Shown: positions 18,328-40,026 of the stretch, one piece after another
Position numbering within the stretch: position 1 is the first letter of the stretch
Layout: each line of letters starts with the position of its first letter
From: an uncultured SAR116 cluster alpha proteobacterium
GTDB taxonomy: Bacteria; Pseudomonadota; Alphaproteobacteria; Puniceispirillales; Puniceispirillaceae
DNA length: 64,000 nt
Reading direction: 5' to 3'
Assembly (NCBI GenBank): GCA_902622515.1
Contig: CACNQE010000005.1
Location: 1 to 64,000, forward strand
Translations under genes and position numbers: made by a program
Notes under the pieces: model-generated
The model's database searches: none
What the model saw: the letters and a program-made list of their open reading frames with translations, nothing else
What the model was told of the DNA's origin: nothing

Positions 18328-18470
18328 CACAGATTCTTACTTTGTAATTAGGTTTGAACATATGAGGTTCAGATTTCCTCAATTTACGATAAATCTATAT
18401 AATTTTGAATACTTTTAAAACAAAAGGTAAATCGATATGATTAAATTATTTTATTTGGAAATTGCACATT

Positions 18471-19223
18471 ATGATAACTTTGTACATTACTGGAGCAGGA
18501 GTTAGCAAACAAAGTGGTATCCCAACTTTTAGGGGTGAGGATGGCTTCTGGACAATTGGGAGTAAGAACTACACTCCTCAGGAAATGGCCACACGTCAGA
18601 TGTACCGTTTTCAGCCGGAGGAATTTTTATTATGGTATTATAAACGTTTTGTGACCTATAAGGATGTTTATCCAAACAGCGCACATCAATGGCTCTCAGA
18701 TAAAAGACTTATTACTCAGAATATAGACGGACTTGATGACAAGGCGGGAAACAAAACATATATTCCCATTCATGGTAGGTTAGATAGGGTAACTGTTTAT
18801 AGTAGTCAGGAACAACCTCAAAAATTACTACAAGCCCCTTGGGAAGATATAGAGCAGTTAAAAATTGAAGTTGAAGACCATATTCGGTTGAAATATGCAT
18901 TACTCGAAAGTTTTAAAATATCACTCTCAACAAAAAAGCCTGAAAAGGGGGTCTCGTTGAAACCCTTTATTCTGTTGTTTGATGAATATTATACGGATTT
19001 ATATAGAATGACTGAGGCAGAGAGATGGATGCAAGACGCAGATAGAGTGGTTTTTATAGGCACTTCTTTCAGTGTAAATATAACCTCAATTGCACTTAGA
19101 ATTGCTTTACAAAACAACGCTGATATTGAAATTGTTGACCCTGAACCTGTTGACTTAGGCATTCCTTCAATTACTTATCATAGTCTTACAGCAGAGGATT
19201 ATATTTCACGACTAGATGGGTAA
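18471..19223 (+). CDS. Sir2-like protein lacking the zinc-finger cysteines
   Basis: A 250-residue protein with the Rossmann NAD-binding signatures of sirtuins: ITGAGVSKQSGIPTFRG (6-22), TQNIDGLDDKAG (82-93), the active-site His101 in IPIHG, and FIGTSFSV (195-202). Between His101 and KPFILLFDEYY, where sirtuins carry four zinc cysteines, there are none; the whole protein has no cysteine. It may be a zinc-independent deacylase, an ADP-ribosyl transferase or an NADase. An upstream TTG at 18462 gives three more residues; the ATG at 18471 is used. The broken HD-domain gene follows after 28 bases and may once have been its partner. Confidence 0.72.
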   Translation: MITLYITGAGVSKQSGIPTFRGEDGFWTIGSKNYTPQEMATRQMYRFQPEEFLLWYYKRFVTYKDVYPNSAHQWLSDKRLITQNIDGLDDKAGNKTYIPIHGRLDRVTVYSSQEQPQKLLQAPWEDIEQLKIEVEDHIRLKYALLESFKISLSTKKPEKGVSLKPFILLFDEYYTDLYRMTEAERWMQDADRVVFIGTSFSVNITSIALRIALQNNADIEIVDPEPVDLGIPSITYHSLTAEDYISRLDG

Positions 19224-19251: not shown

Positions 19252-19842
19252 ATGAGTAAAGAAAATAAGGTTTCTTTCAAAAGAATGGGTCATGAAAGCA
19301 TTGAAGATTACAAGCTTTCGCATTCACTTGAAACTAAATATATCAAAAGACTCCCAGATGGAATTTTAAAAGCTCTTTTGCGATTAGATGATACGTTAGC
19401 AGGCTATCAAGTTACACGTCTTGAACACTCTCTTCAGTCTGCGACAAGAGCGGAGGCAGTTGGGGCAGATATATAGTTGGTTGTAGCCGCTCTCATTCAT
19501 AATATAGGGGACGAATTAGCTCCAGAGAATCATTCTCAAATGGCAGCGTGTATAATAGGGCAGTGCGTAAGAGCTGAAGTGGCTTGGATTTTAGAAATGC
19601 ATGGGATTTTTCAATATAAATATTATGCAGATAAGACTGGACTTAATCTAGATGAAAGAGAGCGATGGAGGGGGCATCCATGGTTTGATAAATGTGAGCA
19701 ATTTTGCCGTGATTGGGATCAAATGTCGTTTGATCCAGATTACGATACAAAATCTCTAAGTTATTTCGAGTCAATGCTCAGAGAAATTTTTAGCAGACCT
19801 GCTTTTGATAAAGTCTTTTTAAAGAAACCGTCCCAATTTTAA
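19252..19842 (+). pseudogene. HD-domain protein gene interrupted by an in-frame TAG
   Basis: One continuous frame of 197 codons is broken by TAG at 19474-19476 (codon 75). The upstream part carries the first metal-ligand histidine of an HD domain (RLEHS, His59). The downstream part has the rest: LVVAALIHNIGD, HGIFQYKYYAD, HPWFDKCEQFC and FDPDYD, a pattern known from HD/PhnZ- and MIOX-like diiron proteins. The canonical HD pair is itself changed to His83-Asn84. Both lesions are explained by one-base changes (GAG to TAG, GAT to AAT). Restart at the TTG after the stop would lack the first ligand. I therefore call it a recent pseudogene. A sequencing error could explain the stop but would not explain the Asn as well. 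Confidence 0.75.

Positions 19843-39949: not shown

Positions 39950-40026
<77 letters not shown>

Follow-up and report, generated by a model that had tools for sequence, protein, structure and literature searches.

A predicted zinc-free family of class III-like sirtuins with a rewritten acceptor side in SAR116 and other, mostly marine, bacteria

The window analyzed here is a 64,000-nucleotide stretch of DNA from an uncultured SAR116 cluster alphaproteobacterium (contig CACNQE010000005.1). On its forward strand, on which all window features described below lie unless stated otherwise, a gene at 18471..19223 encodes a protein of 250 amino acids that matches the Pfam SIR2 family (PF02146; 86.7 bits, E 2.4e-24, residues 8-202), exceeding the curated cut-off of 24 bits. 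The longest mechanical open reading frame starts at a TTG at 18462; relatives align instead from the ATG at 18471, and the stop codon ends at 19223. Apart from SIR2, a Pfam scan of the protein at E up to 0.01 returned a sub-threshold Ago_N match and nothing else. The single minus frame translated across the same interval contains many stops, promoter and terminator scans gave results no better than shuffles, and the gene has no DNA match in E. coli. Judged on sequence, 18471-19223 is a real gene for a SIR2 protein without the four-Cys zinc module.

To describe conservation, 21 family rows were set against 37 canonical rows (23 of the zinc type and 14 of a zinc-free type from Bacteroidota); we chose the lists of NAD/catalytic and acceptor positions ourselves, on the basis of sirtuin structure. 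The 19 NAD/catalytic positions compared are all invariant in the 21 family rows and equal to the canonical consensus. The NAD-binding motif TGAGVSKQSGIPTFR (residues 7-21, 18489..18533) is intact, with G8, A9, G10, S12, S15, G16, T19, F20 and R21 the same in every family row, as are T82, Q83, N84 and D86 of TQNID (residues 82-86, 18714..18728). The catalytic histidine position, H101 (18771..18773), is His in 21/21 family rows, in all 37 canonical rows and in 7/7 zinc-bearing relatives of a type that we call FDE, described below. The initial annotation had located ITGAG at residues 6-10, TQNID at 82-86, the active-site His at 101 and GTS at 197-199, and each is found there. Its reading of the protein as a non-canonical NAD-using enzyme likewise agrees with the sequences, since the NAD/catalytic positions are kept while the zinc site is absent family-wide. 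WYYKR (residues 55-59, 18633..18647) holds the Y56-x-x-R59 pair of the class III acyl pocket; both residues are invariant in 21/21 family rows and equal to the canonical consensus, and in a profile search the pair aligns with WYxxR of Sir2Af1. The accessible text of PMC3484402 ascribes the preference of human SIRT5 for malonyl and succinyl groups to the counterparts of this pair, Tyr102 and Arg105. Because the nearest zinc-bearing relatives keep R59 in 7/7 rows but Y56 in 3/7, the pair may be an inherited remnant.

In place of the four-Cys zinc module lies a stretch of 65 residues without Cys (residues 103-167, 18777..18971), so that the spacing from H101-G102 to the next conserved strand is 65 residues versus about 39, counted by eye on the alignment, in a zinc-type alphaproteobacterial sirtuin (L054). 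The whole protein has 0 Cys in 250 residues; a cysteine-free protein with an insert of about 60 residues replacing the module is what had first been noted. Among 43 distinct family members of at least 220 residues, a count that takes in the window protein and one member cut by a contig end (L025), none has four Cys in the replaced stretch (the maximum is two), and a C-x(2-4)-C occurs anywhere in the protein only in L028, as one copy. Only 14 of the 43 are entirely Cys-free, the remainder having one to four scattered Cys, and the family trait is therefore the missing four-Cys zinc site, not a Cys-free composition. The stretch is 54-113 residues long across the 43 members, and a longer form of 86-113 residues is seen in L026, L028, L029, L030 and L046.

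Two strands on the acceptor side are also altered. The family differs from the canonical rows at 13 of the 47 positions that are at least 90% conserved in the latter. Ten of the 13 carry a single fixed residue throughout the family: V52F, H89D, S94N, R164K, V168L, W169L, G171D, Y203N, P204I and A205T. Six of these ten lie on or beside the acceptor-side strands, and the other four, 52, 89, 94 and 164, have no acceptor-side assignment. The peptide-binding strand, whose canonical consensus is V, W, F, G, E, reads LLFDE (residues 168-172, 18972..18986) in 21/21 family rows. GTSFSVNIT (residues 197-205, 19059..19085) stands for canonical GTSxxVYPA; here GTS, F200, V202, N203, I204 and T205 are invariant in 21/21, with canonical Y, P and A at 203-205. 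The acceptor-side contact positions F170, E172 and V202 are kept. In LiSir2rp1, as the accessible part of PMC5854310 describes it, the substrate peptide is held in a beta-staple by residues 191, 192 and 222, the acyl-lysine tunnel is formed by Val188 and Val221, and Phe189 and Phe190 lie beside the acetyl group. With equivalence assigned by motif, positions 168, 169, 171 and 203 map onto this peptide and tunnel surface (the VFFGE and V-x strands), and 204-205 come next after it. Part of the rewriting is already present in the zinc-bearing FDE relatives (L168, D171 and Y174 in 7/7 rows, N203 in 5/7), whereas D89, L169, I204 and T205 occur in none of the seven and therefore arose on the family's own stem. 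The alignments thus portray a protein whose NAD-handling half is kept, and in which the zinc module and most positions of the two acceptor-side strands appear to have been rewritten and then frozen.

The FDE-type sirtuins (L051 and L102-L105 from Bacteroidota, L132 and L133 from Gammaproteobacteria) form a subfamily with WFDExY for WFGE; L051, for instance, carries TIGSKNYTPQEM. They share with the zinc-free family L168, F170-D171-E172 and Y174 (7/7) and N203 (5/7), and unlike it they keep CxxxC and CxxC in the module, as well as H89 and W169 in 7/7 rows. We found no characterized member among them. To place the family, two trees of hand-picked representatives were built, one of 74 rows with all columns and one of 72 rows that omitted the columns of the zinc region and the loci L097 and L168, whose rows are very long. 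In both, the 21 family rows are one clade (100/100), nested with the seven FDE sirtuins in a 28-row clade (100/100), although the long stem of the family invites long-branch effects; in the first tree L132 and L133 are its sister (98/80). The first tree, midpoint-rooted and containing no class I, II or IV reference, puts the family plus FDE clade beside all the other rows sampled. The family stem measures 3.99 changes per column in the second tree, with a mean crown depth of 0.97.

Zinc loss is not confined to this family. The initial annotation had taken the four-Cys module to be near universal in deacylase sirtuins, which was an overstatement: 30 of 40 sampled Bacteroidota SIR2 regions also lack cysteine pairs (nine have at least four Cys there and one was unparsed), these regions (among L164-L203) having been chosen from the lower-scoring matches listed, so that 30/40 is not a phylum-wide rate. 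These CobB-like sirtuins (the RSS type; L082 and the 30 regions) resemble the family in lacking zinc cysteine pairs while keeping the catalytic residues, and differ from it in keeping FGE, GLH and VYPA and in their short stem (0.26 in the second tree). The 14 Bacteroidota rows without zinc cysteine pairs form a separate group, at 99/93 in the first tree and more weakly, at 92/70, in the second. Zinc loss maps as two changes on the second tree, and a joint zinc-free clade was rejected (p-AU 0.0126) in a test made after the first tree had shown the groups apart. The two lineages thus look like separate losses. With a second zinc-free lineage of apparently independent origin in Bacteroidota, loss of zinc alone is not exceptional among sirtuins; the unusual part is its combination with a rewritten, frozen acceptor side.

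The family is conserved but, from the genomes searched, patchy, in mostly marine bacteria of the window's order, other Alphaproteobacteria and Gammaproteobacteria (Pseudoalteromonas). In the window's own genome, which is 95% complete, the sirtuin is the sole match to itself (E up to 1) and the sole PF02146 match (E up to 0.001). Of 101 genomes (the own one and 100 relatives), 32, spread over 9 of 20 genera, are matched at E up to 1e-5; besides the own genome, 25 of these give full or nearly full alignments at 60-94% identity and four give partial or split ones (contig end or longer insert). The remaining two, G024 (C9:30905-31317) and G034 (C20:11074-11362), both from the same family of organisms, have only fragments with internal stops, apparently decayed copies. 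PF02146 was matched in 30 of the 101 genomes, once in 29 and twice in G090, where the second match is partial and of 34% identity. Five carriers outside this set (two Pseudoalteromonas and three others) have one PF02146 match each, the zinc-free sirtuin, and the Saprospiraceae genome of L051 has two; such counts are statements on assembled sequence, many of the genomes being incomplete.

Scanning genome contigs turned up 21 loci, of which 20 belong to the family (L050 partial) and one is the distant relative L051. By record title, the 20 come from SAR116, Rhodospirillaceae, Rhodobacteraceae, Pelagibacterales, other Alphaproteobacteria, Pseudoalteromonas and other Gammaproteobacteria. Identity to the window protein is 57-62% for 14 of the 16 other aligned members, from Alpha- and Gammaproteobacteria, and 92-94% for the other two; in the contig scan the two loci titled SAR116 are at 92-93%. 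Among 288 evenly drawn Alphaproteobacteria, 126 have a SIR2-type match at E up to 1e-8, and only the window's genome and G015 score above 400 bits, the next score being 67.5; across 274 gammaproteobacterial genomes a family member was found in the centre genome of that set only. Pairwise dN/dS (NG86) is 0.05-0.27 in eight of nine pairs, dS being saturated in the ninth, and these low values, with 57-62% identity across Alpha- and Gammaproteobacteria, show constraint on the sequence. Public annotation of the Pseudoalteromonas copies reads 'Sir2 family NAD-dependent protein deacetylase' in seven of eight rows and 'sirtuin' in the eighth. Eight family members at 55-58% identity, all on large Pseudoalteromonas replicons, were among the best 15 of 111 plasmid-record matches. 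Phage records gave distant sirtuins only (24.7-29.6% identity, best 15 of 70), and of two IMG/VR searches one gave no relative and the other 12 loci at up to 36% identity; we set aside a phage or plasmid origin. A literature search, with subscription papers mostly outside its reach, found no description of this family among the papers listed. A 2025 paper on acetic acid bacteria mentions, in its accessible portion, SIR2 proteins predicted without a zinc site (PMC11820453), and the word 'zinc' is absent from the main text, as accessible, of a 2023 activity survey of 101 sirtuins (PMC10652111) and of a 2021 review of bacterial sirtuins (PMC8603916).

Comparison of neighbourhoods revealed no neighbour common to all lineages, and neighbouring genes gave no hint of a substrate; as neighbours differ between lineages, we rejected an operon as a guide to function. 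In the window the next gene, which is not part of the sirtuin family, encodes an HD-domain protein (19252..19842), begins 28 nt downstream of the sirtuin, has an in-frame TAG at 19474 and reads HN for HD in the metal motif. Either decay of the gene or a sequencing artefact would seem to explain this; uninterrupted copies of 196 amino acids are present in L031-L033, of the window's genus, where the HD gene follows the sirtuin in L032 and L033 and stands behind another gene in L031. The HD copy of L032 is distantly like phosphonate-degradation HD oxygenases (TIGR03276 41.5 bits, TmpB model 38.7, both below cut-off). The intervening gene of L031 (5607-6743) resembles 2-trimethylaminoethylphosphonate dioxygenase (TmpA model 340.2 bits, cut-off 400); neither the window nor L032 or L033 has it in that place. 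What is left in the window may be the relic of a phosphonate pair of the TmpA-TmpB kind. One other family of the order has a gene facing the sirtuin that, read by eye, looks like a thioesterase. In some Pseudoalteromonas the upstream gene overlaps the sirtuin by 4 nt, and that gene in L044 and L045 differs from the one in another Pseudoalteromonas record. The sole match of an Rfam scan of the window at gathering threshold was one tRNA (39953-40026, reverse strand).

An AlphaFold2 model of the window protein (17 rows) has a mean pLDDT of 87.3 and a pTM of 0.85, and falls below pLDDT 50 only at residues 21-26 and 28-38, in the cofactor loop. The replaced stretch, 103-167, is modelled with ten-residue pLDDT means of 86-97 as a strand (102-109) and helices (124-129 and 137-147). 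The Pseudoalteromonas member L042 gave a similar model (pLDDT 87.0, pTM 0.85), in which the replaced stretch consists of a strand, a helical turn of three residues and a helix at 130-140 in that protein's numbering. The best among the matches listed by VIA-align are CobB (1s5p; Z 21.2, rmsd 2.4, 202 aligned), 1m2g, which we take to be Sir2Af1 (Z 21.2, rmsd 2.9, 215 aligned), and SIRT5 (6acp; Z 20.9, rmsd 3.1, 226 aligned); among those listed by Foldseek, Sir2Tm, SIRT5 and Sir2Af1 come first. A profile of 16 family rows and L051 searched against PDB sequences found Sir2Af1 first (E 4.3e-36), then SIRT5, Sir2Af2 and CobB. The family is thus like the class III enzymes CobB, Sir2Af1 and SIRT5 in fold, in NAD and catalytic motifs and in the Y-x-x-R pair, and differs from them in lacking the four-Cys zinc site and in having LLFDE for VWFGE, VNIT for VYPA, GLD for GLH and AGN for AGS. 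The initial annotation had named a profile match to a well-characterized zinc-free deacylase subfamily as what would overturn its view, and no such match emerged: the NCBIfam deacylase models match below their cut-offs, the CobB model NF040867, for example, at 112.8 bits against a curated cut-off of 320.

Sirtuins in general release nicotinamide from NAD and transfer the ADP-ribosyl group to the acyl oxygen, forming O-acyl-ADP-ribose. On balance, and with somewhat better than even confidence, we regard the family as zinc-independent relatives of class III (CobB/SIRT5/Sir2Af1-like) sirtuins, most likely NAD-dependent lysine deacylases acting on one or a few specific targets; deacylation, acyl preference and substrate specificity are all parts that we infer. 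NAD would bind as usual in the Rossmann pocket, with N84, D86 and H101 serving nicotinamide release and ADP-ribosyl transfer to the acyl oxygen, and the products would be free lysine and O-acyl-ADP-ribose. An acidic acyl group such as succinyl, malonyl or glutaryl would be preferred owing to Y56 and R59. In canonical enzymes a zinc-stapled small domain and the FGE and VYP strands clamp many acyl-lysine peptides; the family would instead use a metal-free strand-plus-helix element and the LLFDE and VNIT strands, which points to a narrow, conserved acceptor. Several points speak against this proposal: the Y-x-x-R pair may be an inherited remnant, four of the ten fixed differences have no acceptor-side assignment while F170, E172 and V202 are unchanged, the neighbouring genes offer no substrate hint, the changes of FGE to FDE and of VYPA to VNIT could destroy peptide binding, and the zinc module is said, in the accessible text of PMC12700824, to be required for deacetylation by canonical sirtuins (zinc is likewise called essential in PfSIR2A in the excerpt of PMC3484402 available).

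A bolder form of the proposal, which we hold only tentatively, is that the family is a new sirtuin class. After branching from the FDE type it would have discarded zinc and the general peptide clamp and rebuilt its acceptor site in one burst, since frozen. The NAD catalyst, itself unchanged, would now act on a single specific acceptor common to SAR116 and Pseudoalteromonas, either one particular folded protein or a small acylated metabolite. A rival to the specific lysine deacylase is an ordinary housekeeping deacylase of the CobB type with its usual broad substrate range, from which zinc was simply lost (neutrally, for example under marine zinc scarcity). That the protein is the sole PF02146 protein in the carriers tested would fit, as would the apparent separateness of the two zinc losses (two changes; joint clade p-AU 0.0126); moreover the Bacteroidota lineage keeps FGE, GLH and VYPA, and zinc can therefore go without an acceptor-side rewrite. 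We nevertheless think it unlikely: here the loss accompanies a stem of 3.99 (crown depth 0.97), against 0.26 for the Bacteroidota lineage, and ten positions that canonical enzymes conserve have fixed changes (six on or beside the acceptor-side strands), which is more than neutral loss would give.

Still more doubtful is a reading in which the sirtuin pocket serves a NADase or ADP-ribosyltransferase and no deacylation takes place. SIR2_2 proteins, ThsA and FAM118 have, like the family, a sirtuin Rossmann domain without a zinc module, and in the accessible text of PMC12700824 ThsA and FAM118 are linked with NAD processing or NADase activity; a loss of peptide binding would also suit the rewritten acceptor side. 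The family protein, however, has no SIR2_2 Pfam match (E up to 0.01), and the 50 fold entries listed by VIA-align are deacylase-type sirtuins, with no ThsA or SIR2_2 structure among the matches listed there or by Foldseek, an absence that by itself excludes nothing. A defence role was considered from context and rejected: PADLOC matched 0 families (E up to 1), Pfam showed no defence gene among the nine window neighbours scanned, and none was noticed by eye in the other neighbourhoods. The protein is a stand-alone one of 250 residues, with no sensor or effector domain. SirTM (class M) ADP-ribosyltransferases share the sirtuin fold and, in the available excerpt of PMC4518038, have Gln for the catalytic His and keep zinc; the family has His in 21/21 rows and no zinc site. 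Thus, of the initial reading, the non-canonical NAD-using enzyme stands, and the kinship proposed with Sir2-like defence NADases and ADP-ribosyl transferases finds no support, the fold matches listed being CobB, Sir2Af1, SIRT5 and Sir2Tm. Least probable of all is a sirtuin-derived enzyme on a small-molecule or non-lysine acceptor, which would accord with a lost general peptide clamp beside retained NAD chemistry and with strong constraint in varying gene contexts, but for which the intact sirtuin domain fold and Y-x-x-R are more simply explained by acyl-lysine.

The family bears on a general question. Zinc is described, in the accessible texts of PMC12700824 and PMC3484402, as structurally necessary for deacylating sirtuins, and here a conserved natural family has kept the catalytic positions and lost the zinc site. 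Together with its zinc-bearing sisters and an apparently independent zinc-free lineage, it would make the question of whether the zinc module is needed for deacylation testable on proteins of about 250 residues, and the same comparison would make the determinants of sirtuin substrate range testable as well.
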